A DNA stretch of 64,000 nucleotides from the NCBI RefSeq assembly GCF_963576615.1, contig NC_088708.1:56283196-56347195 (forward strand), written 5' to 3'. Shown in pieces: positions 15,038 to 59,860 of the stretch (its first letter is position 1; each line of letters begins with the position of its first letter). A program made the position numbers and the translations under genes. The DNA is from Watersipora subatra. Its lineage: Eukaryota; Bryozoa; Gymnolaemata; Cheilostomatida; Watersiporidae. Under the pieces are notes generated by a model. The model worked only from the letters and a program-made list of their open reading frames with translations. It made no database searches and was not told the origin of the DNA.

Positions 15038-16531
15038 CCTCAAACGGTCAAATTAAATTATTTCTTTCATTTTCTGTGTCGATTTGTTCACCGTGGTATC
15101 ATTTCCTCTAGAAACGTTAGTACAGTTATTAGGTAGTACTCTTTACAGTCATTACTATTCGTACGACCTGGAATAATGAACAAAAACAGGTTGATTCTGA
15201 TAAAATTATTTTGTATATGCAGTAAAACTTTCAGACTGTTACGTGAACGTACTGTTATATGTTTACACTAATAACCGTGACTCACGATCAGGTGAAACAA
15301 TCAAACGACAAAAAACCACGTTTAATTTTTGATTACATTAAGCATACATAAGTTTGAAAGCAATATTTGTATTATTGTTACATTCATAGTATAACATTGT
15401 ATTTATGTGCTAACCTTTATACACACTGCTATCTCGATACCCTAATTAAATCAACTTTTTTCCGAGTGAAGAACTGTTCAACGATTGTGTATTTTCCAGT
15501 TCAGATAACCGGATATAGCAAACATTCTCAACTTCATTACTAAAGGCCCTGATCAATACAAATTGAAAGAAGTTGTCTACTCATTCTTAGGGTAAACAAC
15601 TTCTTTGCACGTGCGGTGGTATCCTACAATGGTCGGTACCAAAATGCTCTGCAGACCCTACGTATATGCCTCATTCAAAATTTCTCCTCGATTAGGTTTT
15701 TTTCGACACGCTCTTTTTACGAAGTTATGGTTATCTGACTGAATTAGCAGTAATGAATTCTCGATAAGCTTCAAACAACAACATTTCAAATTTGTGTCCT
15801 AGAAATTATGACTCACAAGCTGCTAGCGGGAATGATAGAATTCCACTGCAGCTTTCATTTATCTGGCAAATGTAATGAATAGTGTCAAACCAGTCTTTTC
15901 TGATTAGCCAAAAACCTCATCATAGTTTTGTAGCTCTTAGTTACACAAACTCTGTAAACACACTTGAGTATTCTTTAGCCAATGTAGCCCTCTACACAAC
16001 TTGTGAAATGTTACTACCTGAGCTGATGTATAATATCTATCAGTGAAAAGTAAAATAACATTGAAAGTCCCTAAAGTGGTATCATATACATAGCGAAGCT
16101 CGGGAACATCATCTGCAAGCAATTGATGCATAAGCAAGACTTGCTGTTTATGAAATGACAAACTTCGATGTACAATAAGAATGGAAGGTTTATGCCAACT
16201 TTATAAAAATATGTACATAGTAAAAGAAAGCAACTATTTTGTACACAGAAACAAGATACTACAATATGCAAAATACAAATACATAACGTCTAAAGTTAGC
16301 TGCTAAATCGAATGCGCATATAATATGTACAAATAATGAAATTTATAAATGTAGGATGCATACCGTATCGTTGATTGTAAAAACATTAATGCAATTTATT
16401 CATGGGTACAAGAAGTCTAATTGGTTCTAAAATCCACCACACTTATAACGCTATTGTATTGTTTATAATTAATTTATATATAATGAGATGAAATTGAGCT
16501 TTTAGTAGCACTATATGCAGATTTCTGAGTA
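15038..16531. other. Intergenic spacer between UBAP1 and the phosphatase gene
   Basis: Holds the UBAP1 5' flank and the phosphatase 3' UTR. A candidate poly(A) signal for the phosphatase (AATAAA on the minus strand) is at 16396-16401. No further gene or repeat was recognised. Confidence 0.5.
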
Positions 16532-19500
16532 CTATGTGGTGTCCAATCGTATGAGACGGAGTTTATTGCTGTCAGCCAACACGCATGCTGCATCATTGCT
16601 GCCACCACAATAGCCTGAGGATGAGAAAACTGTGAGCAATTTACCTCTCTGCTGCACCTGCAACAATCCTCATTGAGTAAAAACAAAAGCATTGACAAAC
16701 CACCAACAACCGCTAACCACTACTACAGTCATAACCACCAACAACCGCTAACCACTACTACAGTCATAACCACCAACAACCGCTAACCACTACTACAGTC
16801 ATAACCACCAACAACCGCTAACCACTACTACAGTCATACCATACGATTTAACGATTTAAACGACATGTACTTGTTTATATGATGAAAATGGATACAGACC
16901 TTTATGAGCCATAAAAAGCTATCTAGAATAAGATATCTGCTATGGATCATTCCTTACTTGTCTTGCGCAATGATATAGAAAGCAGTTTCCCCGATAGAAG
17001 GTCATAAATGATTCACTATGCCTTTAAATGTATGCATATATGCCTTATTATATTTGTGGTAGACAATCAAATAAATATGAAGTAAAGTACTCACTACCTC
17101 ATATGAACATATAATTTTTGTATAACCTTTAATATATTTTGTACAATTTTATATATGTACGTCCTGTATAATTTTTAGCTCTTTACTAAAAGACCGTGCA
17201 GCAGTACTTTCAACTTGCCACAACTTGACAAACACCTATGACTGCTTCATACACATAAAAGAAAATATTTCTATGACTCTGTTGCTATATGACATTGAAC
17301 AAGCTCTATTATCAGTGCGGGAGCCGCTGGTAACAGTCCCTCAAATGATGTATACCGGTACATTGTCACTGGTGCTTTAACCAACCAGCCAGAATGCAGG
17401 AACTTAAATAAAACATAAACCTAGCTTTGAATATTCACTTGAATACAAGAAATGAACGCTTAGCAACATTGCTGTTACAAGTGTGAGCTCAAATATAAAA
17501 AGGAAACATCTCCAACATAAATAATAAGACAGCCCTGTATATAATTGATATATTTTTAATATATCAATTATATATCATATATTTTAACATATACCATATA
17601 CATGATATTCTTTTTACCAGTGCTGAGGTAACTGAAGTAAAAACTGCTTTTATTTGTGTCAGTTATCTCAGTATATTGCCCCATAGCCCAACATACACCA
17701 AACAGCTGATCCATGATATGTGATCAGATATGTTATCAGTTATCTCAGTATATTGCCCCATAGCCCAACATACACCAAACAGCTAATCCATGCTATGTGA
17801 TCAGAGTGTGTGCAGTCTATTATCTAGCGAATGCAAACATGTCAAATTATGAGGTAAAAATACATACTTGAAAACCACTTTGTTGTACTTCATGGGCGCG
17901 TATGACATGTGAGAGTCCATTCCTTGTTAAAAATCCCATCAATGCTTCGACATTCCAGAAGTAAGCCGTACCTAAATGGTACAATATTTATCAGTCCGTT
18001 GACATGAATAAAACATGTCATGAGTGAGTCAGTATACATGAGTGACATGACAGAGAGAATAGTGGGATTATCACGAGGTTTAAAATACTATAGAATGATC
18101 ATGAGACAGAGTATAGTGGGATTATCATAAGACTTAAAATGCCATAGAATGATAATGAGACAGAGTATAGCGGGATTATCACGAGGTTTAAAATGCCATA
18201 GAATGATTCAAACTAACCATAGAAGATAGTAGGATTAGAAGCATTTGGCCTCTCATTTAAAAGAAAATATAATTTAGGAAATAAGGAGCTACATTCACGC
18301 ATACTCAATATATGATATGATTTATACTAGAGCAGTTACAGACCGACAGATATGGTGAAGACAACTCTCGGCTTATTAAGCTAATATCCTAGAACTTGTT
18401 TTACTAAAGGGTTGCTAGATTAAATAAGCTATGGGCGGATGCCAACTTGGGCCAACTTGAAAAACAATATACTATCTAAAAACCTAAGCTAGACCCTAAA
18501 TGAAGTACCAAACATTCTTCAATGTTATTCACCTCTGCGTGAGTTGAAAACAAAGCCCTTGTTAGCTTTCATATCCCGTTCCTCTTCTTCATTGAACTGA
18601 TATGAGTTGTTTACTGGGTCACTCCACATAATCTCCCAGGCAAGGGGACTTTCAAACTCTGGATCAGCCAAGGGCACAGGTATGTCATCTATTGCTGTCA
18701 GGGTGCCGTCAGAGTGTGACATAGACGGGATTCCACCGTGCACACAGAATATCTACAACATAAGATCAGTAGCCATTTTTGTGCCATGCACACGTGAAAC
18801 CTACAGTAAAATATTGATTTTATCTAAATTTACAAATTTGCCCAGAGCAAGTGGATTTCTTTTTAAATATACCATTCCATAATTTTTCATAAAAAACCTA
18901 TTAGAACTACCACGCGTTTAAGGCTGCATACTCTTTTAGGTTGGTAAGACAATTCCTTGTTAAATAACAAAGTGCATTGAATATCTTCAAGACTTTATTG
19001 CTGTGACATGTACTTACACATATATGCATATGAAAACAAATTTATTGTAACAAATGGAAGTGTTTCATTGTTTTGAATTAAGAAGTCCGCCTTGTAAATA
19101 GCATATAATATATTCTTAGCATACATGTACGTGGACACAGTTACCAATACGTGAAACCACTGCCAGGCAAGCACCAGGTAATTAAATGTAGTTAAATTCA
19201 TTATTAAATACAGCAATAACAATAATTAAATACAGCAATAACAATTATTTAATACAGCAATAACAATAATTAAATACAGCAATAACGATTATTAAATACA
19301 GCGATAACGATTATTAAATACAACAATAACGATTATTAAATACAGCAATAACAATAATTAAATACAGCAATAACAATTATTAAATACAGCAATAACGATT
19401 ATTAAATACAGCGATAACGATTATTACATACAACAATAACGATTATTAAATACAGCAATAACAATTATTAAATACAGCAATAACGATTATTAACTACAGC

Positions 19501-22500
19501 AATAACAATTAACAAAAGTAGCTGATGTAAGGTGTAACTTAGAAAATTTTGCAAAGGTAGATTTTGCTCAACTCTATTGCTAGCGTAAAATGGTCGTGAT
19601 TTACCTTACTGTCGATAACGGCAGCAACCGGCATGACATCAAAACACTCATTGATGGTGTCCCAAACTCGCAGCCCCACCTGTTCCCCAAACTTTTCACA
19701 ACATTCTCGTTTAAAGTTAAAATTCTCTTGTACAGATCTAAGCTCATGATTTCCTCGGAGGAGAAAGAACTTGCTGGGCGCGAGAACCTTCTGGGAGAGA
19801 AGGTATGCCACGACCTAAACAATCAGAGATAATACATTATACACTTACAATTAACCCTTACAATTTATAAACATCTAAAAAAATATGTCAAGTATCTATT
19901 ATAATATCAACTTCGGCAAACCTGATTAATACATGGAAGTTCTTGCATTGCTTTAGACTACATGCAATTCATTCAGAGACGAGACCTTATTGCAGCAATG
20001 ATTTGGCTAAAGTAATTCGGCTGGAAAGCGCCGCAGATAAATTACTTTCTACATAAAACCTCTCCAAGTAGAACCTTTTTATTTGTTTTATATTTTAAGC
20101 CAATAGAAGATCAGCAAAGAACAACAAAAACAATCTCAAGCAATCTAGAATACTGAGTAATTATTTTATCTACTAGAAAAAATTTTTTATTTAAACAAAT
20201 AGAAAATTTTGATGAGAAAAAACTATTTTCATTGTAGTAAAATCATGAAAGAGGACAAACCTCAACTCCATAACTGCCTCGATCTACGTAGTCACCGAGA
20301 AATAGGAAAGAGGAGGGAGTGACGAGAGGCCCCATCCTCCACAGCACCTTCTCAAAGCACACCAAATCATGGTAGTTGCCGTGAATGTCTCCTGAAACAA
20401 TTTCCAAACATAAAGCTCTGCGCTAAATTTAAATGTTACGAAGAGTCACAAGGTATATGAGCTGCTATAAACATAGCTTCTTATGACATTCCACAGATGG
20501 TGAATGTGTGTAGATGTTTTATAAATGCACATAATGGATGGCGAACCTTAGGCTAAAAACGCAAAGGAGCAAAAGCATAATTGGTTGTGTTTAATATCTC
20601 GAGGGCTGAGAAGTCAATCGAAAGCAAAGGCGAGTTAGTAGAGAAACTGTACTTGAAAGTATAAAGTTGTTAATAAGTCCATCGAGTAGATATAAATGTA
20701 AGACAATAAAAGCACAAATTTGAAATCCAGTAGATGGTGACTAGAACTGTCAATCAGTTCAGCTGCAAGGTGAAAGGTACAAGCTTGCTTCTGAAGAAGC
20801 TACGCAGGCCCATACTTCTGACGTGTACGCGCTGCAAGTACAAGTCTACGCCATTTATTGATTTTGCTGGTGACAAGGGCATTTTTGGAAGATTATAAGA
20901 AATGATAATTTTCATCGCGATAATTTCTATCAGTGTCCAATAAAAATAAAAGCAGCACATTAAAACAACTCTGAGCAGGTAATGGCATTGGCTAATATAC
21001 AAACTCTGTGGAAAAATGAAGGTTCTTCATAAAGCATCAAAAGGAGAAATTGGACACGCCTATTCAGCCGAGGTAGCCACTAAAACATTGGCCAGTAATA
21101 AAACTCGATGCTCTAAAACGGCGACTCGTCTAGTTAACCTATATGGCCAGAAGCTAAATAGATAACTAGACACTTCCCCTGACGATGTAAGAGTGAGTAC
21201 AGATTAAGGGTTCACATTGCAGAAGTAATGTATGAGTGAGTGGTTGTAATGGCTCACTTATGAAACCTGGTGCGTATACAGGAAATGACAGTGTACCCTG
21301 ACAATACTAAAGTGAATGGGCATAATGGGCCAATATGATACCTAATATATAGACAGGAGATCGGAGTCTGAGCAGTCTGGACTCTGTTCTTAGCAAGTCT
21401 TTGACCTGTTCGCACATAGCGAGCAGGCACTTGGCAAAAGCTGTCATGTCCACCTCTCCCCAATCAAAGGCTTTCTACAATGTTACCATCACACAATCAC
21501 TGTACAACGGGCACAGAGGATATTTTTTGACCATCCACCGGCATGAAAAAAATATTTGGGACTCTAGAAAACACAAAGCTGAACATGTAAATACCAAGGG
21601 TGAGGCATGGCAAACAATATTTGATAACCCAACAACGTAATAAGCTAACAGCAAGAAAAAGTAATATATTTTATGAAACAAAAACTTTTCGAAATGTGCT
21701 TTGCCATATGCTTTTGCTAACACCGAACTAGCGCAGAATGTAATTGGCTGCAAATTACCTTTTCCTGCAAGCTATCTGCTCCAGGTTTCTTCTTTATGGC
21801 CATTTCAAAGTATTTCAAGCCGGAGAGCATTTCGTTGGCATGCGACCCCTACAAGCCGTAAGCCCGGAAAGTAGCTAGAGAACTCAGGATAATTATAAAC
21901 ACAAGCAGAGAAGCATAAAAATTCAATGAATAAAGATATGATTTTATTATGGGAAGACAACAGAAAGCAAAGTTAAGTAATGAAAATATGAGGCAACTCG
22001 ACAGGTGTTCATATCACTACATATACAGCAAATGCCCCAAAAACATCCAAACCCCAAACCTCCTATAATGTACACTCCGCTGACCATAGAGAATGTATGT
22101 AAAGTTTCGTTTCATATGTAAGAAAGTCGACAAAACGTAGGGCGCCAAGTCGGTGCAAGTTCTCAAATTCAATTTGAACGAGAGTCTCATAGTTAACCTA
22201 AAAATTTTCATTGCAATCAATACTTGATGCTAACCTCTAACACAGGCTTTGGAAAGAAATTGAAAAAAGGACGGCCGGACAGACGGACAATGCTCTGACA
22301 ACAGTAAATATATTTTTTGTTTCACTTTATTTTCGACATACACAATATTGCTTTAGCTGTTTTTCCCACCAGAGACCACCAGCTGTTTAGAAAAAAGAGA
22401 ACAAAGGATTTAAATTTAAATTGAAGGTCTGCGCTCTCTTTAACTTAACATAAAATTACCATAATCATAATCATTAACCCTAAACCAAGTGAAAGTGATG

Positions 22501-25500
22501 AGAAAAAATTTGCCGATACAAACCAATAATACTACAGTTATTACATTGCATAGTTATTAAATTAAATACCACAGTTACTAAATTAAAAGGATAGGTTTAG
22601 TTTTTTCCTATATGAAAAGCCAAAGGAGGGAGTTTGAGACAATCTTTGAACGGATTAGGCGATTTATGTGTATATTACTGTTTGCATAACACAAAATCTC
22701 TGTAACGAAAGCGTTCTTGGAATGGATTATTTATGTTGTAAGAACATTTACTGTACATTACCTAATCAACATACACTGTATGAATCTCTGTAACGAAAGC
22801 GTTCTTGGAATGGATTATTTATGTTGTAAGAACGTTTACTGTACATTACCTAATCAACATACACTGTATGAATCTCTGTAACGAAAGCGTTCTTGGAATG
22901 GATTATTTATGTTGTAAGAACGTTTACTGTACATTACCTAATCAACATACACTGTATGAATCTCTGTAACGAAAGCGTTCTTGGAATGGATTATTTATGT
23001 TGTAAGAACGTTTACTGTACATTACCTAATCAACATACACTGTATGATATACACTACCTAATCAATATATACTGTGTGGCATACACAGTACACTACCTAT
23101 TAAATATCTTAACCCTTACTGTAAAGGTTGCCACGAGTTGCCTTCATCACATGTCACGACTAAATGACATTAACATGATCGAAGAGCTAAAGCAGGTATA
23201 GGCAAGTGTGATCAGTCAATGTTACAAGAGTTGCCCTACCTTGTTGAATGAGTCTATGGATGCAAAACGACTGAATCTAAGCTTTTCCTCCTCCAGATCT
23301 TGCCCGGTCATAGAGCTAAAAGCGTCGGTATCTTTGAGATCCCAGAGCGCTTTGACATCCATGAGCGCCCCTGAGCGACGCACTTTCACAGTGTGAGTCG
23401 CTAATTCATACGGCCTCTCACTGAGATAACCCTGGTCACTGTTGGCTGTTTGTAGTAGATCTGAAAACAATGCGAGTTCACACAAAATGATGTACAGTGA
23501 AACTCGGATAACTCAAACTTCAAGGGACCGAGCAAAAGTGTTCGAATTATCAGAGCGTTCAAGTTATCAGAGCACTGTCACAAGTCCATGTATTTACTTA
23601 CTTATTAGTAGATACATGTACATATACAAACTATAATATAAATCAAAAGCACAAATGGCTTGTTTCAAATTAAATGCTTCTAATGTAATGTTTAAAACGT
23701 TTTTATCAAAAAGTATAGAGATTTTTCTATCACTTGAGATTGGTTTGTTGTTTGAGGTGATGTTATTGCCAGGACGTTTTTTAGATTGACATTGGCAAAA
23801 CTTGATCGTTGCTGAAATGCTCAAAAGAAAAGACATCATTTTCTTTTGAGCGTTTTACCCACGATCAATTTTGCCGATTTTTCTTGAAGTTTATGCAAAG
23901 ATTACCTTACTTTACCTGGGATTCGTTAAGAGCAACACTCCGAGGCAGTTCAATTAAAAGTTTTACGAGTTTTTACGGTACATTGTATATATCACTCACG
24001 CTTTTTGAATGGATACTTATTGAATGTACACACGTATTCTGTGTTTAGGTCAAACGATGAATAGTTTTTTTTAGCTAAGACAACATAGACGTTTAATTAC
24101 AACAATTTTTAAGACGTTTTAAACATTCAACATTCCGACGTTGATTCAACACGGAATCAACGTCGGAATGATTTTCGCCATGCAAATACAAAACAAAAAC
24201 AACATGCTGTTTTTGTTTTAAATGTGCGTGGCGAAAATCCTTGCGCGCGTGACCCGGCTAGCCCGTGATATTCATCGTATAGCAGTATAAATCAAATTTC
24301 ACCAAATCTTTAGAAAAGTCGTTGACAAAAATATTTTGCCGATGGAGGTAATAACGACGCTTATGAATTAAGAAAAGTTGAGGTTTATCTCTATGGCTTG
24401 GAATAAAGTGATTTTCTAAAGCGATTGCAACCGTTTCGGTAGCCGTTGGGCAAAAAACAGTTCGAATTAACAGTGTTGAGTTCGAGTTATATAGAGCCAT
24501 TTATCATTGCGTGGGAACGGACCAAGCAAATCCATTCGAGTTAACCATGTGTTCGCTATATCCGAGGGCGAGTTATCCATGTTTCACTGTATTTTTATAT
24601 TTTTAGTGCAGTAGAAATTCAATAATCTGTATGTGTTGTTTTGGAGATCGATGTTTTGCACATGCTTTATACAAGCCAACTCTAAACTAGAGTACAGTAG
24701 ATGACCCTATAATATAAACCTTTTTTTAAGTAAATTCCAATGAATGTAAAGCATTTATGTGAAGTTTTTGCTTCATATTACATAAGAAATTCTATATAAC
24801 ATGAAGCATCGAATTGGTGCAAGTTCTCAAATTCATTTTGAATAGCGAGAGTCCCATAGCTAGCCTTAAAAGTATCATTTCCTCTGTTGATGCACACGAG
24901 AGAAAAAACGACCTATAATAAGGGTATCCATTACATTTTTTACTTTATTTTAGGCGTGTACAATATTCTTTTTTTTTTGCAGCATAGACCTTGCTGTGGA
25001 GAGTAAAAAGTACAACAAAACTGATTTAAATTGACATTGAAGGTGTGCACTGTTCTTAACTGCATGTAGAATTACTGTAATCATCGTACTAAACCAAGTG
25101 TGAGTGATAAAAAAAGAGAAAACTTGTCAATGCAAACCAGTAACACCACAGTCATTGTTAAAAAGTTATTTCCATTTTGAAGTTCTAAAGGGGTGAGTTT
25201 GGGAAGATCTTAGAACAAATTACACTATATACATGTATTTTAGGCTTTGCATAACGTAGCCTCTGTAACAAAAATTTTCCTGAAACAGATTATTTATCTT
25301 GTGGGGCCATTTACTGTATTACTATATTTTTTTGACTTTAGAACCATTGGAGTGACAATATAATCATAAGCATATTGATAGACTGTAGCACACAATAGAC
25401 CTGAATTTTTTGCAATGCTTAGTGAAATGAATCCAATGCTTTCCAAATGAATTTAGACATGATTACACATTATAATGATTAAACTCGGGGTACTTGGGTA

Positions 25501-28500
25501 CGATGACCCTGCTATACGATTTTTCGCCTTACGAAGTGGACCACGATGTCTTTTGCCCTCGCCGTACATCATTTTGTTCGCAATACAATATCAACAAAAC
25601 TTTCTCTCGAAATTAATACTTGGCAGTCGGGGTGCTAAATACATGGCAATAACGAAGATGTCGATATGCTATTAGCCGAAATCTCAAAGTAAAAAATAGT
25701 AAAGACATACTAAAACTTAACTTTGCTTTAAGTATGTGTTTAGAAAGCCAAATTCATTTAGGTTAAATTCAACGTTTATGTTATACGTCTGTTTCGAATG
25801 TAAGAACTCCCTAAGGTACGTACTGCACATACATTTAGTACATTATAATGTTACATTTCATGGCAAATTATAACCACTAAATACACTAAAGTTATTGTAG
25901 GTAACTATAGTTAATAAGGTTAACATGTTATTTTGTAATTAATTTTTATAGGTACAGTACATATATAAAATTTATGATTTTTTACCAGGGGTGTTTGCAT
26001 TAGATAATTATTATGGGTTTCTATACCCATCTATACGACATTTTCGCCTTATGATGCCAACACTGAAACAAATTAAAATTGTATGGCAGGGTCCACTATA
26101 ATATGAACTGCTTTTGCTATAAACTTAAGGTTATCTATTAGGTTATCTTTAATAAAGTTTTACAAGATCTTCACTCAAAAAGATTGTGAAGTTATAATAG
26201 GATGCCTAGATCATTATGTTGGTTTAATTGCCTGAGCCATAGCCAGCTACATAACAATAACGACAATAATGTGTGTTTATGATTAACCTGCATACCATTC
26301 GCGGGGAAGCGTGTTGAACTAAATAGTTCCATGAGGAAATAACTCCCGATTAGAATACAGATGACTATCTAGTAATGACTTGTATGAACTGCATGAACTT
26401 TACCACTATCACACCTACTTTAAAATAAAAACAGACAGCTTTTGATACAGAAAAGCTTTTATCGAGGCTAGTTCAATATCAAAACTTATTGCAGTATGAA
26501 GGCAGTGTGAAGGCAGTGTGAAGGCAGTGTGAAGGCAATGTGAAGGCAGTGTGAAGGCAGTGTGAAGGCAGTATGAAGGAAGTGTGAAGGCAGTATGAAG
26601 TATTCATACTGCCTTGTATGAAGGCAGTATGAAGGCAGAAACTGCAGTATGAACTATGAATGCTTTTCCAGGAGCTGAAAATTATGACACAGAGCCAATC
26701 TTAGCTAGGTATCTGTAATTAGCTGAAAAGCTGTCCGAAGAGCTGTATTGTTCATGTGTTTCCTTAACTAACTATTACACACCGTTTTGAGACATCTGTG
26801 TAGACAGAGTCCTGTTATAAAACGAGGAAATGTCCTTCTTTGGACGTTTGTTCGGAGGTGAGAGAGATTTAGGACTACCTGGACTTCGTGGCCTATAAAA
26901 AGAGAGATAACAACGGGTTATGCTAACAAGAGGACAGAGACACTAAAATGTCTTTGTAGATAGCCAGGATTGTTTTACTAAAATAAATATTATAAGAACA
27001 CAAGCTGAGTGTTCATCTATACTGATCAGTCTTTACTTATGCGTCTTTCTTTTTATACATAAAAACATTTTTAGTCAAATGCGGCTTTAAGGTACACGGG
27101 CCATATAAACCCACGTGTGCGCACATTTATCAAGCAGTCAACAATAAGACTACACCACACGCTGCGTGTGAAAAAGCGCTGATCACCTGATATAGTTTTG
27201 TAAAACTAAAATGTGTGAATTACCAGTTTTCATGAGTTGTCTCTCTATTGAGTGTTGTGCAAATTGGTCATGCAAAACCTAGACAACCAACCAGACATGA
27301 CATATATGACCAGTGCAAATGAAATAATGCATCCTTTTATTGCACAAAAAAATACCGTAAAACCTGTATTTCAACGCCACCTCTATTTAACCTCCAACTC
27401 TATGTGACCGTCACTATAAGAAAAGAGTTGAAAAATAGTGCATGACCCTCTAATTGGACGCCAATTCTATTTGACCGCCACTGCTTGGCATTATTGATCT
27501 TTATGAACCCATACCAGCGAGTGATCAGTAAAAAGTGCCCACAAAATCGTACTAATAATGAATCAATTACATCAATAACGATTAATTCTTTCGTTGTTGC
27601 TGTTCGTATCTAAGCCCCTTTTATAACTCCAAAGCTTTACAGTTTTCAAGTTAAAACTTTAAAAGCAACACCATAGAAATAATTAATAACTGTGCCAGGC
27701 TAATAGTAGTTTTTTAACACGGTATTGATACTTAAACGCATGTTTAAAATGTATTAGCAATTACGATGCTGTAGTCGACTTGTAAATGCGCTAAGCGCAT
27801 GCGACTAAAAGTTTATCATTTACAAGTTTTACGTTACAAAAGTATTCTAAATAGCAACAAATAAGTTTTGCTCTGCTAAAACAATTGTTTGGATGCTAAC
27901 ATCGACTAGTTCGACAGTGCAGAAGAAGAGTTTGCTTAGCGGGCAGTGTAGAAGGTCTGCTGAACCAACATTAAAAAGACGATGAAATGGTTCCAACAAA
28001 AAGCAACAATCAGAATGCAATTGGCCGAGCAAACGATGCAACTAGTTTTGTGTAAAAAATGTTAATTTTTGTTTCTGAATGTATTACAAATATGGTTTGG
28101 TTATGGCACTTGGTCTTGAATATACACATGTATTTGTAGCATTTGATAGATTATTATTATTATATAACTTATAAATTTGCAGATTTATAGCATATTATTT
28201 GATGGGCTGATAGTATCATGACGGTAATCTAAACTCGGCTTACAATGAACTGAAGCTCATAACGCCTCCTCTATTGCACATAAAAAACCAGTTTTGATTG
28301 CTAACTCTAACAAAGATCAATGAGTCCAATGAGCTTTTATGAAACATCGTTAAATGTAATTATAAAATAAACATTGCCTTCAAATTTAAAAAGAAATAAA
28401 AAATTCAAAGCTCTCAACAAATTGCAATGTAGGCTATAAGATTACCGTAGGCTACTGTAAAACCTCTAATTGAGCGCCCCGGTGGTTTACTTTTTAACTC

Positions 28501-31500
28501 GTCATCTACAGTGGCGGTCAAATAGAGGTGGCGTTCAAATAGAGGTGGCGTGCAAATAGACGTTTTACGGTAGTTTCAAGCAATAGATATCAACTGGTAG
28601 AGATATTTTTCAGCTTTCCAATGCGCATTTATTTAGAAATCTACAACAAGTTGGAGGTAAGTTATAGTAAGATTTCTTGTATTCAAAAGGGTTCGAGTCG
28701 CTCAGCCCAAAGAAGAGTGCAAAATATAGCGAACAGTCGCTTCGCCCTTGAAAGGGGTAAATTTATATTACCATAATTCTGACGAACGATTTGAAAAATA
28801 CTATGACATCCTCTATTTGAATCTCACCTTTAATAAAGAGTCACTATAAGGGAAGGGTTGGAAAATAGAGCGACACGGGGTTCAAATACACATTTTATAG
28901 TACATTGTTTTATTTGGTCAGTTTCGGTAATTTCCTGGCTAAGTTTATCTCACCATAGATATGCCAAAAACACTGGCATAACAGTTCCAGCGTAAAAAAT
29001 ATACTATTTCAGAAGGACAGCTTCACATATTTTTTACTTGTGCTATCACAAACAATTCAAACGTGTGCATACACCCACACACACACACAGGCACGCACGC
29101 ATGCCAAAGGGTTCATTCTGATTTTTACAGTAATGCTTTAATTGACTGTTCAATGACTTTAATTCCTGACAACTGACAGCGGGAAATAGACATTCTATCA
29201 ACCATCATAGACCTACCCTGTTAAGAAAGAACGAGGTGACCTAAAGAGCACAGAAGTACCCCGAAACTTTAGTTGGCCTACAGTTGTGAGGAATGTGATA
29301 AGTCCGAGGTTCAACGGCTTGCTTGCATTTGCTGTTGGATCAAACTTTCTAAAATAAGAAGAGGTAAATCACTCGCTGACCCTGTGAGAGGACCACAACA
29401 CGCATCCAAGTCAGCTGATTGAGATACCAGCTGTTATATTATATATGTAATATAGGTAACTATATGATTGTATGTATGTTTCATCAACAAACAAACTAAT
29501 ATAGGTAACTACATGATTGTATGTATGTTTCATCAACAAACAAACTAATATAGGTAACTACATGATTGTATGTATGTTTCATCAACAAACAAACTGACTT
29601 TATGAACAACAGACTTCATCATACAATCACAAAGACTGAAGAATTCATCCATTTCACACTCAGTGCAGCCATGCATATTACATATACCATGAGCTGCATA
29701 GTGTGGCTCAGCACAACATTTTCATATGGCTGAGAGCCGCGTGGTGCAGCTCTAGTAGGATTCGCACAAAAAGCTTCTGATTAATCAATAGTTAACTATC
29801 CTACAGGATGAAATTATTCGCAGAGTTAAATCTCGCAAAAAATGGTCTTTTCAGGCATATTCGCGGACTAAATTATTCGCGGATGAACAGATTCACGAAT
29901 AAATTAATATGTGAAAGCAGCTAGCAGTATAGTAAAACCTTCACGTGCGTATACCACGTGTTTAGGTTTCTATTTAGCTGAAAAATTCATGTCGATCATG
30001 CTAAACTATAAATTTTTGGCTGCATCCAGAAGTTTTCAGGATTTTCATTGATTTGGAGGCCTTTGGTGAACCAACAAATTGTGGTAAGTTATGAGTTTTT
30101 TCAAAGTAAAGAATTGCAGAAAAGATTTTTTTGATGATGATACCGCGCCGAATTCCGAATAACTTGTGACAACCTTGAATCATTTTGTAAAGAAGTGTGA
30201 TTTATCGGCAATGGGCTTAACTCAAAGCCCCGGCGATGATTTTAAGAGTTTGGAACTCAGCTACGTTTACTAACTCTGCCTAGCGACTAGTTTTTAATTT
30301 GAGGTAGTAGTTATTTTTCCTTGTGTTAAAAATAAAACTAATTATTCGCGGATTTTAATAATTCGCCGAATTTACTGTACGCGAACTCGCAAATTATTAA
30401 ATCCATCGAATAATTTCATCCTGTAGGGTAATTAACCTATCGTATTTGTACGTGAACGAAAGGAAACAATTATCTGCATGCATTGAGCCAATAGAACATA
30501 TGCTTACAGCCCATTCTGAGTCTAGTTTCGCTTTGTAAAAACCTAATTTTTTCAACGCAATTTCGTTTTAGCAATGACCAGTTGTGTCAAATGCATTATA
30601 GCTACGGAGGTTTCACCGATTGTAGATCAATGATCTTTGGCAGAGTTTTTATTGAACAATAGTACTGCTGAGAGTAATCATTTTGCCGTGAACTATAAAA
30701 ATATTGATAACTTATCCGATTCAGACATGCTCACAGTAGTAGAAAAAATGGCCGAAAAGTCCAAGCCCATTTTGCAATACATTTGTTGCATTTTCTATGG
30801 CATCAACCAATGTGAAAAACTGTGGGATTCAAAAGTTGTGGCACTTTATATGTGCCCTTGTCAAATACAGCCGACGCTCCTATAACGTATATATCTTATG
30901 CCGGTAACATAAATTCCAGATAACGTAAAAAATCTATGTGAAGTTTTTGCTTCAACCTACGTAAAAATTCCATATAACGTAAAGTGTCAAGTCGGGCGAG
31001 TTTTCAAAATCGATTTGAATGCTAGTTCATCTGGCTGCACCTGCGGAGGAAAAAACGACATGCTTATAGCGCTATATCTATTATGCGTAACGTTCGCGAT
31101 ATTCTAATTCGTCGTAATACTGTAGATCGTGAACAGGACAGCTGCGCAATGTTTCAAAAATACTTGAAGACGATCAATTGGTGCAATTGTTACAGAGTTG
31201 ATCTACCAATCTGAATGTCATGAGTTGGAGTATCGTCGACAGTTATCTTTCATCCTAACCTTGACTCCTAGATAAAAATAGACGACGAGCAGGTAGAACC
31301 GATTTCTATATTTAAAAAAATTTTGTTGTTTTGCCTTATTGTAGACGTACAAAATATTTGTTATTAATTAACTTAGCGGTTTAGAAAAAAAAAGCAAATT
31401 GTTGTAAATGAATGCCGAAAATGTGCAGTCCTCCATCAACTTGTAAAATTACTGCGATCATGGTCTATAAAACCAGTGAGATTAATCATAAAAAGTTGAA

Positions 31501-34500
31501 AAGGTGTCAATGCAAACCAATAATACTGCAGCTACGGTACAGCCCACAAATACAAAAAGGAGTTCAGTCAAGTTTTCCTTTTATGAATGGCCAAATGGGT
31601 GAGTTTGAAAAGACTTTGGAACGGATTAGGCAATTTACATGTATTTTACTGTTCTTATAATGTAAATTCCCTATAACGTAAATGTTTCTGGAACGGATTA
31701 TTTATGTTGTAGGAGGGCCTACTGTATTAGATTCTAATGAACATGTAGTTATGTCTCGGTAAAAAAATCAATTTGGAAGCAAAAAAGTTAATGTATGGAG
31801 AAAAACTAGAGACCAAAAGAGAGCATACTAACAAGGCACTGCTGGCCACTTCTTCATCCAGTTCAGCAATAGTCATGGTCTTCTCTTTCTTCTTATGTAT
31901 GTCTTTTATCATATACCTAAAGTTACATACATGTCTTTTATCATATACCTAAAGTTACATACAGGTCTTTTATCATATACCTAAAATTACATACAGGTCT
32001 TTTATCATATACCTAAAACTACATACAGGTCTGTTATCATATACCTAAAATTACATACAGGTCTTTTATCATATACCTAAAATTAAATAACTAGTTTTCA
32101 TTGCTTTCGTTAAGTATTGTTCTCCTGAGAATGCTCGCATCATAGGACAACTTTGATTGAAGGTCATCCTCTAGCCAAATAGTAAGTTTTATACCCAACA
32201 GCCGCTCCGATGGAAAAAACAAAGCAGCTTGCATCAGTTGTGGTTTTGTTCTAACAAGCCAAACCCATAGGTTCATAATCAAGTATACTTACCTGCATGT
32301 ACCAAACATTAATCTTAAATCGAACATCTCAGCTATCGCTAAAAATTTGTTCCAAAACATCGTTAGAGTAATCTTAAAGTTGCAATGTATTACAATCAAA
32401 TCTGAGTTTTGTTTAACTGCAGTACTATTTGTAAAGGTCACAATGCAAACCGGTAAGAGATGGAGCAATAATGGCTGTCCAACTTGAACTGTAACTGTTG
32501 ACGGAAGTGATGTTCTTGTCACTATTTTGATTGCTAAAAGCTGTGAAAACAACTCCTGTAACAATGAAACCAGCTAAAATCTGATAGTCAATTATTGGCT
32601 ATTTGATTATCGATCAATTGGTTGTTCAGTCTGGATGTGGAGTTGAGTGGAGTAGAACAGAAGCACTATGAGAATAACAACAATACAGCGACTCCTCTAG
32701 ACAAGGTCTTAATTATAATAATAGTTGCGGTTGACCTTGACATGAGAAACCATATGAATTGTGTCTGAAGAGATGTTTTTATGGAATGAAAACTCTGAAC
32801 AAGCAGTTTTAATCAACAAACAAAAATTGAGCCAATACGGAAGGAAAAAAGGAGCTCACCAGGCGAGACCTTATCTACACTAAATGCACAGGTGTAAAGA
32901 ATATACTACTACAATGCAAAAAGGCTTTGATTTTGCAATCTAAACCCCAGAAAAGAAACTTCGTTATCATGCTACTCTGCCAATATATCAACGCTATGGT
33001 GCCGTTCAGATCATATGCAATCAGAGTATGTAGTGCTGACCCTAGTTGACAGCCACTCACCTAAATTCATCCCAGTTAAGATGGTTATCACAGTCAGCAT
33101 CATAATATCTGAAAATGTATCTGCATCGAAACTCAGCTGGGGATCCACCATGAGGAGTTGTTGGCTCAAGACATGCCAGCCCGATCAGTGTGTCAAACCA
33201 AGTAAGGAAACCCTGCCGATTTGTGTCAAAGGCTCTAAAGCAAAACCAAAATGTCATCATAACTATTTAGACATGTAGGCAGGAATATTTACCGGCATGT
33301 TAAAAGAGATTACGTTCAGGCAATTACGGACAGAATAATAAAATAATTGCATCAACAAAGCACTCCCTCTTGCATCGGGACAGACGGTAGTTTTACTACA
33401 CTCAAAGTGATCAATTCTTCTGAGTGGATATGAAATAGAAAGCGAAGATGACGACGCTGCAGAGCGATGCAGATGTAAAAGCTTGATGTCAGTCACTATC
33501 AATTGAATATTATAACCAACAAGGTAGGACTGAAAAGGAATGAATATAGAAAGGGAGTACCGTGTATCCTCGCATATAAGCCTATCCACATATAAGCCGA
33601 TCCTAGAAAAACAGCCCTGAAGTCAGGTGATTTAGAAGAGCTCGCATATAAGCCGACCTCATAAATCGTAACACACCGCACGTATCTGTTGGAGCAAAAG
33701 GTTGCGAAAACGAAGCGACTTTTGCAAGCTTAGTAGAAAACGCTTCTGATAGATGAGTAGTTGTATAACTAGCCTATCGTGTCTCTGCTTACTCGAAAGG
33801 AAACAACAATCTGTTTGCCTTAGCCAATGGAAAACATGTTTGCATCTCACACTGACTCTCATCTCACACTGACCTTAGTTTTGCTTTTTAAAACCACATT
33901 TTTATAGCTATTTGTTTCTTTGCTTTTGTTTTTATAGCTACGTAGGGTTCACAAATTGTAAATCAATGAATTTTTGATGATTATCTATTGGGCAATAGTA
34001 GTGGTGACAGTGAGAGTTTATTAACAGTAATAATAATGTCGTAAGCTATAGTAATAGTGATAACTCGTCTGACTCGGAACACACTAACTTGTTCACCAGG
34101 ATAGTATGAAGGGTACAAAAAAGTGTCCCACTTGATTCTGATACGCATTTGTGGTCTTTTTATGGTATCAGATGATGTACAATTTTATGCTAATTAATTT
34201 AGTCAAATGTTATGGCAACCTATATGGGCCAATATCAAATATTTAGTTTACCGAATATTTGTGTCCATAAAAATTTATTTGGTAGCGAAAGAGTTAAGTA
34301 TAGTGGTAACCATTATTGTGGTCTTACTTTTCTTAATAAACAAAGTTGAGTTAATAAAGGTTCGAGCTGTAGTTGTCAAAATTAAATTAGCAAAATTTCA
34401 TTTCGTTGTCTTTCCATCAAAGTTACCCACAAATAAGCCGGACCTCTAAGTTTTGTAAATAAATTTTGCGATTCTAGAATCAGCTTATATGCAGTGATAT

Positions 34501-37500
34501 ACAGTAAATGACAGTAAATAAAATACAGTAAATGACATAACATAATAACATAATACAAGTGAATTAACTAAAACTTTGTTTCAAAACTAATTTTGACATT
34601 AAAACCGTTAATATTATACAACAATGCAAAAATTTATTAAATTACAGCCAAAAATCTTAAAATGATAGAAGTTGTTTGCCACGTTTATGCTCTATGTTCA
34701 TCTGATTATGCATAACAAATCAAACATAAGAAACAAGTTTAAACATGTCAGCTACATAAATGAATAAATGTTGCTGACCTTTCAGCACTCAGTATCGTGT
34801 AATGTATTTTAGGAGTGGGCTATAATAGGCCAAGCCTCAAAAACTCACCTAAAGAATTTGTCCAACTGCTCTGTGATATCTAGGAAACCAAGTCTCTTCA
34901 TAAGGTTGTGAAATTGAGTGTTGTTCAGAGATTGACTAGGAAAGGTTATATCTAAATATTCCTTGTAAAGTAGTTCTTGTTCTGAAATGTAAACACCATC
35001 ATCAGTGGGTTCCAAACTGCGATTAACAGACCAGTTTATATAACTAACCAAGCGGTGATTTTAAGAGTAGCAGGTACTGATTGCCAGAGTGAAATTCCTA
35101 ACTATAATAAGAACAGCGTCCGTCCAAAGCCATGATAAGAGCGTTAACAAAAAACAATGCCTCGCACGGAAATCAAACCCAGGGCATCATTGTCACAGCT
35201 GAATATGCTACCACTACACCACTCGGGCGCCTAACCACCTTACGGGACAATTCTCCATATACAGATTACTCATGATGGTCTCTCACATTGTACGGGACTA
35301 GCAAGCTAGTAAAAATAAAGAGTCTTTAGCTGCATATTTCTAGATGATTCAGAGTTGGTGTGTCTTGTCGTAATTGTTTCAAGCTATGTTAAGTCATTAG
35401 TATAAAATGTTAAGTCATTATTGTAAAATGTTAAGTCATTATTGTAAACATCCCAAACCATCTAAAAGTCAACAAAACTTGCACTAAACATAATACTTCC
35501 GAAGTCCAAGTTAAATCTTACACAAAACACGCAGGTATAATTTACCAAACAAGTTCACTTGTAATAAAAACATAACAAGAGAATAATTTTTTTAATTTTG
35601 CACTGTGCTTCTAAAAACAACTGCAAAGACAGTCATAGCAGCCAGCACCTGAAGATCTCAACGCGCAACTGGCAGGCAAAGCGAGGTAAGCCTGAATTTC
35701 ATCTTAATATAAATCAGACAACCAAAAACTCGTTGTTTCTAAAAATCTGCACATTGTCTTTGCCGCACAATCTTTAAACAGAACATCTTTAACTATTCAA
35801 GTTTAAAACAGTACTTTAATCAAATTCCATAAATCTCTTTGACTATTTCCAAACCTCACCACATAAGAAACAAACCTAATTTTGAAAATATTATTTGCTA
35901 TCAAGGGTCGACTTCTTCTGGTTGAAGGCAGTTACACTACAAGCAGTGCCAACATCGCCACATGGCAGTCATCAATACCATTGTACTAAATTGCAATAAA
36001 ATGTAACACCAGAACAAAAACAAACCTTTCATTCCAAACCGTGCAGACTTGAGTAGCATATTGTATGAGGCAGAAGGGAACTTATGCTGTGCCGAAGTGT
36101 CCACCGCTAAATCATTGTCCGTGAAGATGTACTTGTTATCAGTTAGAGTAGAAACATCAGCTAAATTGCCGGCATCAACTGCTTCTATGTAGGTTACAGC
36201 CTCCAAGCCATACAGGTCTGGTGTATCTGACCTTCCCTGTTGAGAATGGCACTAATGTAGACAAATGCAGGAAGCTAGATTTGCACTAACCAATTCCAAA
36301 TGTAAAACTGAACTCTGGGTAATTGACAGGTCTCATTGTTGTATTATTGACTCTTCCTTCCAACAGAACTGCAGTAAAGTCTTACATAGTCAACTAGATT
36401 TTGTAATAACCAGGTGTATAAATAAGAAGTCTGAGATAAATTTAATTTCTTTGAAAAAGCGAGAACTAAAGTTTAATATAGTTTTCCTGTGTAAAGGCAA
36501 TTAGAGTGCAAACAGAGTTGAAAATAACAAACCCGTTGAGCCATTTGCTTGATGCGCTCAAGAGACAGCCATGTTTGTCCCGCAGGAGAATCCTCGCTCT
36601 CTTCTCCATCGCAGAATGAGAGAGAAAAAGAGACGTGGTTAATATCTCGGTCTAGCATTCGACTTTTTCCCAAAGACACTTTTACTATACCACTGACCTT
36701 CACCCTTACACCAAAGAGCTGCAATAATCAGGATGTCAGATATTGCTAAGCTGAAAATTGAAAAATAACGGTATGAATAAAAGTTATGCATTACAGCATG
36801 ATTATGGTGAGCAATAACTGACTCAGCTCTTGCAAACTTATTTTACATTATAGTAATACACAAGCATACAGAAACAGATTTTCACCATAAAAGGTATTTG
36901 CACGATTTACAAAACTAATAGCTGATAATGTAACCTCACAAGTACAGATTCACTATTACATGGAGATAATAGTTTAGTACGAAAGCTTTCATACGATAAA
37001 GGAGTGTGACAATTCATAATTTCGGTAAAAAAGATTCCACACCTTACACGTTTAATGAAAACGAAGAGGAACTTTTGAGCCTGCTTCACATTTATTATGC
37101 TGAACATAGTGTATGGTAAAGTATGAACATGTATGGTGATGGACAAAAGTCTGGGGATTTTGTTCTAGAGCGTTCCCAGACTTCTGTCCCTCATTGTAGG
37201 TGATTTTTACCATACAAGTTGCTCAATATATTATTCAGTATTTTCTTCAGTCTTCTGCACCAAAAAGGGTGTTGAAAGTTTGATCTTGGGTGCTATTTAT
37301 GATAAATTAAATATCTTCTTTACATTGCACCAAACGAATATCATATTGACATGATGAACTAGATTTTTATTGCTAACATGCGATCATCCCACAAGTGCTA
37401 TAACAGTCTTGGAAAACATACCTCAAAACCTAGTCGTTGTGCAGCAGTGATAGAAGTTTCACCATTTTTTATATCGGTACATGGCAACCATAGGCCTTTT

Positions 37501-37673
37501 CCTTCATAATCTCTCAACAAATATGTGTTATCCAATTTTCGTTTGACCACAACGCTAACTATACTAGTCAGACCACAAACTGAAGAAGTGTGCGACACAG
37601 AGTCCATTGCTGTATCTCCATTGCTATTATCTGTGCAATCTCCGCCACCGGAAAATGAAGTGGAAGCATCCAT
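16532..37673 (-). CDS. Nudix-like / EF-hand / PPP-type Ser/Thr protein phosphatase fusion, 17 exons, 873 aa
   Basis: Minus-strand exons: 37673-37422, 36718-36533, 36236-36026, 35691-35649, 35043-34849, 33234-33061, 31916-31833, 29348-29217, 26892-26783, 23460-23240, 21848-21759, 21474-21342, 20391-20261, 19814-19605, 18752-18533, 17971-17868 and 16657-16532 (TAG). They total 2622 bp and all phases close. Residues 1 to about 150 look Nudix-like ([39 protein letters not shown]), with an imperfect Nudix box. Around residues 295-360 are two EF-hand loops: [12 protein letters not shown], and the more canonical [12 protein letters not shown]. From about 600 there is a complete PPP catalytic domain: GDIHG, GDYVDRG, RGNHE, HGG and RAHE, ending [19 protein letters not shown]. 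All metal and phosphate ligands appear present. The expected activity is phosphoserine/threonine hydrolysis under calcium control, which is inference. PPEF phosphatases carry EF-hands at the C-terminus; here they precede the catalytic domain. I do not know a name for this architecture. The start ATG is the first in-frame Met of exon 1; extra 5' exons cannot be excluded. Confidence 0.88.
16698..16840. repeat. 35-bp minisatellite, 4 copies
   Basis: Near-perfect repeats of a unit containing ACCACCAACAACCGCTAACC then ACTACTACAGTCAT. They lie just upstream of the last phosphatase exon, in its intron. Confidence 0.9.
17658..17812. repeat. 78-bp tandem duplication
   Basis: A unit starting CAGTTATCTCAGTATATTGC occurs at 17660 and 17738, in the last intron of the phosphatase gene. 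Confidence 0.85.
18050..18212. repeat. 54-bp minisatellite, 3 copies
   Basis: AGTGGGATTATC..AAAATGCCATAGAATGAT recurs at 18061, 18115 and 18169. Confidence 0.85.
19200..19515. repeat. 22-bp minisatellite, about 14 copies
   Basis: The unit AATACAGCAATAACAATTAT repeats with a 22-bp period, alternating AACAATTATT and AACGATTATT variants. It lies just downstream of the exon encoding RGNHE. Confidence 0.9.
22023..23046. mobile_element. TACAGTA-family MITE (copy 1) with its end expanded into an 88-bp tandem array
   Basis: Starts TACAGCAAATGCCCC and shares internal sequence (GGTGCAAGTTCTCAAATTCA) with copies at 24693-25318 and 30866-31726. The right-hand terminus (ATTTATGTTGTAAGAACATT followed by TACTGTA) is part of an 88-bp unit repeated four times (starts 22695, 22783, 22871, 22959). 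TA dinucleotides mark the ends, as in Tc1/mariner-like MITEs. No coding capacity. Confidence 0.7.
23660..23890. repeat. Foldback interspersed repeat, copy 2 (nested in a MITE)
   Basis: Contains ATCAAAAAGTATAGAG, TTTGAGGTGATGTTATTGCC and AAAACTTGATCGTTG, matching the repeat at 1734-1990. Its centre is a short palindrome in which CTCAAAAGAAAA faces TTTTCTTTTGAG across GACATCA. Confidence 0.65.
24131..24239. repeat. Two adjoining hairpins
   Basis: The first is a perfect 17-bp stem, CATTCCGACGTTGATTC with a 6-nt loop (24131-24170). The second pairs GATTTTCGCCATGCA with TGCGTGGCGAAAATC (24170-24239) and has an inner AAAACAAAAACA/TGTTTTTGTTTT stem. Confidence 0.85.
24693..25318. mobile_element. 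TACAGTA-family MITE, copy 2
   Basis: Left end TACAGTAGATGACCC; inverted right end TACAGTAAATGGCCC; TA at both borders. Shares its interior (GTGAAGTTTTTGCTTCA, TTGGTGCAAGTTCTCAAATT) with copies at 22023 and 30866. No coding capacity. Confidence 0.8.
25499..26100. mobile_element. TA-flanked MITE (GACCCTGCTATACGA family)
   Basis: Left end TACGATGACCCTGCTATACG; inverted right end TATAGTGGACCCTGCCATAC. Secondary inner similarity (ATTTTTCGCCTTACGA and ATTTTCGCCTTATGA) is present. About 600 bp, non-coding. Confidence 0.7.
26491..26645. repeat. 11-bp minisatellite with internal hairpin
   Basis: GCAGTGTGAAG repeats about ten times and then runs into a perfect hairpin, CAGTATGAA-GTA-TTCATACTG (26591-26611). 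A short second run of GTATGAAGGCA follows. Confidence 0.85.
27353..28572. mobile_element. TA-flanked TIR element (TACCGTAAAAC family)
   Basis: Left end TACCGTAAAACCTGTATTTC, then CGCCACCTCTATTT. Inverted right end TACCGTAAAACGTCTATTTG, then CGCCACCTCTATTTG repeated twice. TA borders. 1.2 kb without a recognisable transposase. A decayed relative lies at about 28800-28905 (CACTATAAGGGAAGGGTTGG with AAAATAGAG). Confidence 0.8.
29075..29102. repeat. CA/CACG microsatellite
   Basis: Short (CA)n run followed by GCACGCACGC, in a phosphatase intron. Confidence 0.9.
29449..29596. repeat. 49-bp minisatellite, 3 copies
   Basis: ATATAGGTAACTACATGATT plus TGTATGTATGTTTCATCAAC repeats at 29451, 29500 and 29549. 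Confidence 0.9.
29797..30430. mobile_element. TA-flanked MITE (CCTACAGGATGAAATTATTCG family)
   Basis: Left end TATCCTACAGGATGAAATTA and inverted right end TACCCTACAGGATGAAATTA, with repeated ATTATTCGCGGA motifs near both ends. 634 bp, no coding capacity. It lies in the intron between exons 7 and 8 of the phosphatase gene. Confidence 0.8.
30866..31726. mobile_element. TACAGTA-family MITE, copy 3
   Basis: Starts TACAGCCGACGCTCCTATAA and ends (inverted) TACAGTAGGCCCTCCTACAA. Interior GTGAAGTTTTTGCTTCA and CCATATAACGTAAAG match copy 2. The right end lies about 100 bp from the phosphatase exon at 31833. Confidence 0.75.
31901..32087. repeat. 32-bp minisatellite, 6 copies, containing a splice acceptor
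   Basis: Unit starts at 31901, 31933, 31965, 31997, 32029 and 32061. Read on the minus strand each unit contains TTTAGGTATATGATAAAAGA or a one-base variant of it. The lowest-coordinate copy is the acceptor and first 16 nt of the phosphatase exon ending at 31916 (EF-hand 2 continuation, YMIKD). The array is therefore a duplicated intron/exon boundary. Confidence 0.85.
33558..34506. mobile_element. TA-flanked TIR element (TATCCTCGCATATAAGCC family)
   Basis: Left end TACCGTGTATCCTCGCATAT; inverted right end TACTGTATATCACTGCATAT, followed on both sides by AAGC and similar sequence. ATATAAGCCGA motifs recur inside. 950 bp with no transposase. Confidence 0.75.
35159..35232 (-). repeat. tRNA-like sequence (SINE head or tRNA pseudogene)
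   Basis: The minus strand has an A-box-like TGGTGTAGTGGTAGCA and a B-box-like GGTTTGATTTCC at tRNA-like spacing. The stems do not form a convincing cloverleaf. Confidence 0.4.
35387..35450. repeat. 21-bp minisatellite, 3 copies
   Basis: TGTTAAGTCATTATTGTAAAA repeats at 35387, 35408 and 35429. Confidence 0.85.
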
Positions 37674-40323: not shown

Positions 40324-41370
40324 ATGGCATTTGTAAACGTCATACTAAACAAGATGTGTCTAGAGCTAAAAAACATCCCTATGAAAGTGTTATGCATTAT
40401 GTTAGTAATACTGCAGTCGTTCTTTATGGATGTTATCATCATAAATTGTTATGGCACTGGACCTGGTGGTGAGGATGAGTGTAAGCATTGTAAGTTATGT
40501 TACTGGTGGATAGCTGGAGACGCGCTAATTGTGGCTGGCTTCATTGTCACATTTGTCGTATCATACAAACACTTAGAATATTATTCTAATTCTCGACGAT
40601 TAAATAAGAAACACATGTCATATGGAGTACCATTATCCGCCATTGTTTGGTTCATTTATTCTTCATACCTCTCTGCAAAAGTCGCTGTCATCTTCATTAC
40701 CGCAATCGACGATAAGCTGAAATCTACCGATTTCTATGGACCACAGTTCTTAAAAACAGGGATTTGTTTGAGCGGTGTAGTCTTCATACTTTTTGTCGCG
40801 TCTCACCACAAGGCTAAAGAGAACAGCAAAGAGCGAATGTATATCACGAGTGTTTCGTCCGGCATCACATTTGACGTATTGGATACTGTGGATTTTCTGG
40901 ATGTGCTATTTGTCAATGAAACTGGCTTGATACTAAGCTACCCTCTGGAAAGAGCCATTTTGGCTATAGCAATACTGAATCTTCTCCGGCCTACGTTCTC
41001 ATTTATTCTCATCATTCTTAATCATTTTAACGCTACAAAGCTTTCAAGAGAGCTATCAGCTGCAAATGCTGTTGTGTACATATTTTTTGTTAATGTACCA
41101 TTCATGGCTGTAAGAATGTATCTATGGCATAATCTCGATTCAGACATGAGTGTGTTCCTCGTCAAGAACTTCGTCATGATATTCATCGGACTCAATGAAC
41201 TGCATGAAATTTCTCTAGAAAAAACCCAAGAGCAAGATTCATCCGTAATTGAAATGACACCACGATTAACAACAGCGCATCGACCAACCGACCTTGTAGA
41301 TAGCTCTCCTGAAGGACCACCACAGTATACAGATGCATTGGTTAATAGAAATGAGACTGCGGATGTGTGA
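40324..41370 (+). CDS. TMEM121-family multi-pass membrane protein, single exon, 348 aa
   Basis: An uninterrupted ORF. The protein has about seven hydrophobic segments: near residues 20-40 (VLCIMLVILQSFFMDVIII), 64-84, 103-127, 146-162, 208-235, 247-265 and 276-292. Family hallmarks are SGITFDVLDTVDFLDVLF, NVPFMAVRMYLWHNL and FLVKNFVMIFIGLNEL, resembling the conserved core of vertebrate TMEM121/TMEM121B. The molecular function of that family is not well established. The cytoplasmic-looking C-terminal tail is hydrophilic and contains PPQY, a PPxY motif that can bind WW-domain E3 ligases (inference). Vertebrate TMEM121 is also encoded in one coding exon. A second in-frame Met at residue 11 could be used instead. 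A tandem decayed copy lies 1.1 kb downstream. Confidence 0.88.
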   Translation: MAFVNVILNKMCLELKNIPMKVLCIMLVILQSFFMDVIIINCYGTGPGGEDECKHCKLCYWWIAGDALIVAGFIVTFVVSYKHLEYYSNSRRLNKKHMSYGVPLSAIVWFIYSSYLSAKVAVIFITAIDDKLKSTDFYGPQFLKTGICLSGVVFILFVASHHKAKENSKERMYITSVSSGITFDVLDTVDFLDVLFVNETGLILSYPLERAILAIAILNLLRPTFSFILIILNHFNATKLSRELSAANAVVYIFFVNVPFMAVRMYLWHNLDSDMSVFLVKNFVMIFIGLNELHEISLEKTQEQDSSVIEMTPRLTTAHRPTDLVDSSPEGPPQYTDALVNRNETADV

Positions 41371-59379: not shown

Positions 59380-59860
59380 TTAATTGCTATATATGTTTGA
59401 TAGCTCTGTTGATAGTCTCTTATTGGCATGCTTGAATGAGCTTTTGTTGTTGGTGTAGCGTGCCTCAAATGTGCCTTCTGTAAGCCCATCATAGGTGTTA
59501 GTTTGTGTAATGTCTGCAGTGGTCACTTTTGTCTGGTATACAAGAGATCGAGTTAAGCATTTGCCTTCTAGCGGGCAGGTCATTTGTTGGCGGCAATTAC
59601 AGTATTTGGTTTTCTCTCCTGTTGGTGTTATGCTTAGCATTGATTTGTTGTGACTCATAATTGTATGTCTTATATTGTTCATGCAGTCGTAGCTGATCTT
59701 GCAGTTGTTGTTGTTGTTTAATATTTTATGCAGTTTGCTGCAAGGTAGAAATTCAGTAGCGATGATTTGCATGAAAATTTTTCCAATGTTAGTTAGTAGA
59801 CTCTTACTATAAGGAATATTGTACCATATGATTTTTTGGGAGCGTCTGTATGTTTTGGGT
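59380..59860 (-). mobile_element. Penelope-like element fragment (RT thumb plus GIY-YIG start)
   Basis: The minus strand encodes IIWYNIPYSKSLLTNIGKIF, then KLHKILNNNNNCKISYDCMN, a zinc-like linker CNCRQQMTCPLEGKC, and a GIY-YIG-like YDGLTEGTFEARY. It stops early, soon after ELSNIYSN. These are the RT C-terminal part, linker and endonuclease start typical of Penelope-like elements. The sequence differs from the neighbouring copies at 59996-61425, so it belongs to another subfamily. It is truncated at both ends. Confidence 0.8.

Follow-up and report, generated by a model that had tools for sequence, protein, structure and literature searches.

A stretch of 64,000 nucleotides from the bryozoan Watersipora subatra (contig NC_088708.1, positions 56,283,196 to 56,347,195; this whole 64-kb stretch is the window, and positions below are counted within it) carries a predicted protein phosphatase gene on its minus strand, running from 37673 to 16532. 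We consider it probable, though by no means certain, that this is one gene and that its product would be a single-chain, calcium-regulated Ser/Thr phosphatase of the PPP family with a non-catalytic Nudix module. In the genomic DNA, 16 predicted exons can be joined into one frame that encodes a protein of 838 residues, from the start ATG at 37673 to a TAG stop codon ending at 16532. From N- to C-terminus, the predicted protein comprises a Nudix-like region, EF-hands, a basic Ser/Pro linker and a PPP catalytic domain. An earlier note, made from the letters of this DNA, had proposed the same order of domains in one polypeptide, and the in-phase chain of exons together with the domain matches bears this out. 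Its count of 17 exons and 873 residues is replaced here by 16 exons and 838 residues; a search of the 15 introns gave no extra exon scoring above 0.1. The exons and a candidate polyadenylation signal are as follows.

37422..37673, minus strand: exon 1, residues 1-84; contains the start codon and the N-terminal half of the Nudix-like region, to RLGFE of the degenerate box (hhalign)
36533..36718, minus strand: exon 2, residues 85-146; second half of the Nudix-like region, LFGV ... WLSLERI (hhalign)
36026..36236, minus strand: exon 3, residues 147-217; remainder of the N-terminal region, without a family match
34849..34981, minus strand: exon 4, residues 217-261; likely degenerate first EF-hand (alignments)
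33061..33234, minus strand: exon 5, residues 261-319; EF-hand pair, with loops at 33192-33227 and 33066-33101 (Pfam and loop pattern)
31833..31916, minus strand: exon 6, residues 319-347; closes the EF-hand pair region, donor GTTAGT chosen for phase
29217..29348, minus strand: exon 7, residues 347-391; start of the linker, with a guessed fourth EF-hand-like segment (coding score)
26783..26892, minus strand: exon 8, residues 391-428; basic Ser/Pro-rich linker with KRPK, resembling a nuclear localization signal
23240..23460, minus strand: exon 9, residues 428-501; linker, no family match (coding score)
21759..21848, minus strand: exon 10, residues 502-531; linker running into the phosphatase domain (coding score)
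21342..21474, minus strand: exon 11, residues 532-576; start of the PPP domain
20261..20391, minus strand: exon 12, residues 576-619; GDIHG and GDYVDRG (motif scan, Pfam)
19605..19814, minus strand: exon 13, residues 620-689; RGNHE (motif scan)
18533..18752, minus strand: exon 14, residues 690-763; VHGG and WSDP
17868..17971, minus strand: exon 15, residues 763-797; RAHE (motif scan), the sole exon with a negative coding score
16532..16657, minus strand: exon 16, residues 798-838 and stop codon; SSGYC
16395..16400, minus strand: putative polyadenylation signal AATAAA, some 130 nt past the stop codon

Exon junctions were placed at splice sites that preserve the reading frame, the donor of exon 6 being the least certain. 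Because the sites were picked for frame, the in-phase joining is supportive and does not amount to independent evidence. Coding potential was scored with a codon model from whose training each exon was left out in turn, and 15 of the 16 exons score positive, exon 4 lying near zero. The linker exons 7-10 reach 0.10-0.22 per codon, as against at most 0.04 in 442 open intron windows, for which the model had been trained on all exons. The search for missed exons considered in-phase stretches 45-300 nt long that have a [CT]AG acceptor and end at any of 16 common donor types, the best two per intron being kept. Among the 20 candidates listed, two scored 0.1 and 18 scored below zero; introns 3, 4, 13 and 14 held no candidate under these search settings.

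The phosphatase domain is the most clearly recognizable part of the protein. The motifs GDIHG (residue 576), GDYVDRG (608), RGNHE (639), VHGG (693) and RAHE (787) are all in place, and in a six-frame scan GDIHG, GDYVDRG, RGNHE and RAHE were each found once, on the minus strand. Pfam Metallophos covers residues 571-792 (E 2.7e-29), and 13 of the 13 PP1 positions checked (D64, H66, D92, D95, R96, N124, H125, H173, D208, R221, H248, Y272 and C273) are identical. Judged from these positions, the motifs of PPP membership and the metal-binding and catalytic residues are intact, and the full catalytic core seen in the earlier note is upheld. The stop codon comes directly after this domain. In calcineurin A, the C-terminus holds the helix that binds calcineurin B as well as calmodulin-binding and autoinhibitory segments.

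Affinities of the catalytic domain were assessed against five PPP types, with PPEF, PP7 and EFPP sequences left out of both the tree and the identities. Identity is highest to calcineurin A (40%), followed by BSU1 (38%), PP1 and PP2A (35% each) and PP5 (31%). The top matches in the PDB are calcineurin A, BSU1 and PP1, and PP5 is missing from the best 60 of 92 matches. In a six-sequence tree the domain sits beside calcineurin A on a long branch, with a bootstrap of 72 for the grouping. In the approximately unbiased (AU) test of the sister position, p was 0.73 for PP2B, 0.41 for BSU1, 0.08 for PP5, 0.076 for PP2A and 0.055 for PP1, so that none is rejected at 5%; the bootstrap proportions by resampling of estimated log-likelihoods (bp-RELL) in the same test reject PP5, PP2A and PP1. 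By identity, the domain is most like calcineurin A and least like PP5 among these five types, the tree itself being indecisive.

Ahead of the phosphatase lies the putative calcium module. Pfam EF-hand_7 matches with E 2e-8, and two calcium loops starting at residues 264 and 306 together span residues 264-317, rather than 295-360, where the earlier note had placed its correctly recognized loops. Both fit a calcium-loop pattern of our own, of the DxDxDGxxxxxE kind and tolerating Q at the fifth place, and both look able to bind calcium. Within residues 217-387, hippocalcin-type proteins can be aligned with a stretch of 105-116 residues (best E 4.3e-5), NCS-1 and KChIP coming next. From the alignments a degenerate first EF-hand is likely in exon 4, and a fourth EF-hand-like segment in exon 7 is a guess. 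The first EF segment also matched RIB57 at E 3.2e-7, but this value adds up three weak EF-hand matches, and the hit was set aside as generic. The basic Ser/Pro linker described in the earlier note was located in exon 8; KRPK and four SP sites fall within residues 384-403, and this segment may be phosphorylated or serve nuclear import. Exons 7-10 match no family in Pfam.

The boundary between intron 5 and exon 6 is repeated. A 32-bp tandem array (31901-32089, minus strand) holds six copies of the acceptor junction, of which the last is the one used in the gene model and the sole copy that preserves the frame. With any of the five upstream acceptors the frame is shifted and a stop codon is reached 13 codons on; a transcript using one of them would encode a form that ends after the EF-hands. 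Two further intronic features were observed. Intron 3 contains a tRNA-like stretch (~35130-35235, minus strand) with box A-like and box B-like matches, possibly a tRNA-derived short interspersed nuclear element, and ARAGORN found no tRNA gene in the 64-kb window. In intron 9, four 88-bp tandem copies with a 99% match occupy 22695-23047.

The relationship of the N-terminus to Nudix domains is remote. NCBIfam gave two weak Nudix models for residues 41-153 (E 0.027 and 0.076) beside one unrelated model (E 0.088), and the same two Nudix models for residues 1-216 at E 0.073 and 0.11. A profile was then compared that consists of 30 bacterial Nudix domains, reached by way of two of 80 retained MutT loci (247 matching stretches in genome contigs); MutT matches in phages (88 records) and plasmids (79 records) were not used, and a MutT search of viral contigs yielded no relative. 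With hhalign, residues 34-160 score 30.15 against this profile (probability 66%, 83 columns). None of 200 shuffled sequences reaches this score (maximum 19.2), the reversed region and five windows from elsewhere in the protein score 9.1-11.7, and 107 of 108 neighbouring bacterial gene segments stay at or below 20.2. The 108th, with a score of 109.7, lies in the Nudix-bearing locus L099 and is probably that locus's own Nudix domain.

Within the alignment, the Nudix box occupies residues 66-88, with its spacing exact across the junction of exons 1 and 2. RLGFEL stands in place of REUxEE, and the strict pattern Gx5Ex7REUxEExGU is absent. Besides the spacing, one catalytic glutamate and the last glycine are retained, and the first glycine, the glutamate after the arginine, the hydrophobic residue next to it and the last glutamate are lost. 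Since most of the catalytic box is gone, hydrolysis is unlikely, which leaves at best the binding of a ligand or partner as the function of the domain. The region is thus probably non-catalytic, and what the comparison suggests is a remote, degenerate similarity only. The Nudix-like N-terminus of the earlier note survives in this reduced sense, as a profile similarity above that of shuffled sequences and gene segments, with the catalytic box mostly lost.

Several known systems share parts of this arrangement. Calcineurin has the catalytic domain of highest identity among the five types and is likewise under calcium control by a calmodulin-like EF-hand module. It requires a separate EF-hand subunit, whereas here the EF-hands lie N-terminally in the same chain and the C-terminal segments of calcineurin A are absent. 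PPEF, rdgC and PP7 have EF-hands and a PPP domain in one chain; in PPEF, the EF-hands are described as C-terminal and an IQ motif as N-terminal (PMC1885993). The contrast with the PPEF/rdgC type made in the earlier note is borne out to that extent, since here the EF loops precede Metallophos. The full IQ pattern is also absent from the protein, which has only two short partial matches, at residues 796 and 798, both C-terminal. The apicomplexan EFPP (PP8) comes closer in order, with EF-hands N-terminal to a PPP domain in one chain (PMC8355824). It is described as apicomplexan-specific and its activity as doubtful or likely absent (PMC8355824, PMC3447748); compared by description only, the protein considered here differs in its intact active site and its added Nudix-like domain. 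The architecture called distinct in the earlier note is therefore not new in its N-terminal EF-hands, although among the matches listed from the open-licence PMC literature no description combining Nudix, EF-hand and PPP phosphatase was found.

BSU1, of the PPKL type, has a short insertion at the same site (GESYG, here GEQVG) besides its 38% identity. PPKL carries kelch repeats at its N-terminus (PMC3447748), and Pfam finds none here. For the Nudix-like region, the closest parallel by description is the NUDT9-H domain of human TRPM2, which is inactive, has the box RILRQE and binds ADP-ribose (PMC6461439). Both are degenerate Nudix boxes in multidomain signalling proteins; here, however, the domain is joined to a phosphatase, and Pfam named no domain of the NUDT9-H type. 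According to a review, Nudix domains without catalytic activity are usually parts of multidomain proteins, where what they bind is either a small molecule or another domain (PMC5389931).

Several observations weigh against a single gene for a calcium-regulated phosphatase with a Nudix module. The gene model is a prediction read from genomic DNA alone, and exon 15 scores negative for coding although RAHE is encoded there. The protein stops at its catalytic domain, so that the helix by which calcineurin A binds its partner is missing. No relative of the whole protein was found in viral contigs (0 pattern matches) or genome contigs (13 matches, none related), nor did the PPP domain match anything in a plasmid collection; these collections hold no animals, and the null results say little on conservation. 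While the profile searches proposed in the earlier note succeeded for EF-hand_7 and Metallophos, Pfam at E up to 1 gave no Nudix match for residues 1-216, its sole match there being MULE (E 0.09), judged to be chance. Seven genuine Nudix domains that the profile did not include score 73-193, far above the query, with near-twins of some of them remaining in the profile. It would fit these last results that the N-terminus is unrelated to Nudix and that the protein is an EF-hand PPP phosphatase with an orphan N-terminal domain. A PDB search of the region at E up to 10 gave one unrelated match (E 0.62), a PHROGs search gave two chance matches, neither of them Nudix, and the box is broken. The hhalign score, however, exceeds all 200 shuffles and 107 of 108 segments, and the box stays aligned in register within the 83 columns. 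We regard an unrelated N-terminus as unlikely, if still the foremost of the alternatives.

Two adjacent genes on the same strand, one for the Nudix-like and EF-hand part and one for the phosphatase, might also have been joined on paper. In Plasmodium, a gene model that had a phosphatase fused to another domain was afterwards suggested to represent two genes (PMC2559854), which implies that predicted fusions can be wrong and need RNA. Here the model comes from genomic DNA, introns 6-9 are long (1.4-3.3 kb) and exons 7-10 match no family. But these four exons score above all 442 open intron windows, and the junctions of exons 6-11 join in phase at GT/AG sites, with the reservation already made about their choice; two genes appear rather improbable. 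The tandem acceptors allow a different objection, that the gene is often truncated or decaying and that most transcripts stop just past the EF-hands, as five of the six acceptors would have it. This we hold to be quite improbable, as the reading frame stays open through all 16 exons, an intact active site is encoded and the last acceptor preserves the frame. Least probable of all is a divergent PPEF/rdgC phosphatase with relocated EF-hands. The union of EF-hands and PPP domain in one chain and the unrejected sister position to PP5 favour it, but the EF-hands are N-terminal, there is no full IQ motif and PP5 is the least similar type in identity and is missing from the best 60 of 92 PDB matches, a comparison made without PPEF itself.

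Other features were observed elsewhere in the window.

3910-4221, plus strand: open reading frame with SHNi-TPR (Pfam E 1.7e-11), presumably a NASP-type histone chaperone
12206-13579, minus strand: open frame of 458 residues, rich in Lys/Glu and Ser/Pro by eye; no Pfam match at E up to 0.01
40297-41367, plus strand: open reading frame of the CECR6/TMEM121 family (Pfam E 1.1e-42)
47262-48247: minisatellite, ~31 copies of a 32-bp unit
49068-50299: minisatellite, ~47 copies of a 26-bp unit
50383-50718, minus strand: GDP dissociation inhibitor open reading frame (Pfam GDI, E 3.1e-46), probably an exon
59383-59991, minus strand, and 60545-61246, plus strand: open frames mutually similar by eye, which may be retroelement parts; no Pfam match at E up to 0.01

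If the favoured reading of one calcium-regulated phosphatase with a Nudix module is right, calcium binding to the EF-hand module would alter the contact of this module with the catalytic domain and thereby switch phosphatase activity. By analogy, the module would act as the separate calcineurin B does on calcineurin A, but intramolecularly. The Nudix-derived domain, having lost hydrolysis, may serve as a regulatory module that binds a ligand or partner, like NUDT9-H in human TRPM2. A more speculative extension, which we consider unlikely as it stands, is a phosphatase receiving two signals, calcium through the EF-hands and a nucleotide-type metabolite such as ADP-ribose or an NAD derivative through the Nudix domain; alternative splicing at exon 6 might in addition act as a switch toward a phosphatase-less calcium sensor. 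A calcium module ahead of a calcineurin-like catalytic domain, combined with a repurposed Nudix domain, would be an added way to control PPP phosphatases, and would parallel TRPM2, whose degenerate Nudix domain is a metabolite receptor.

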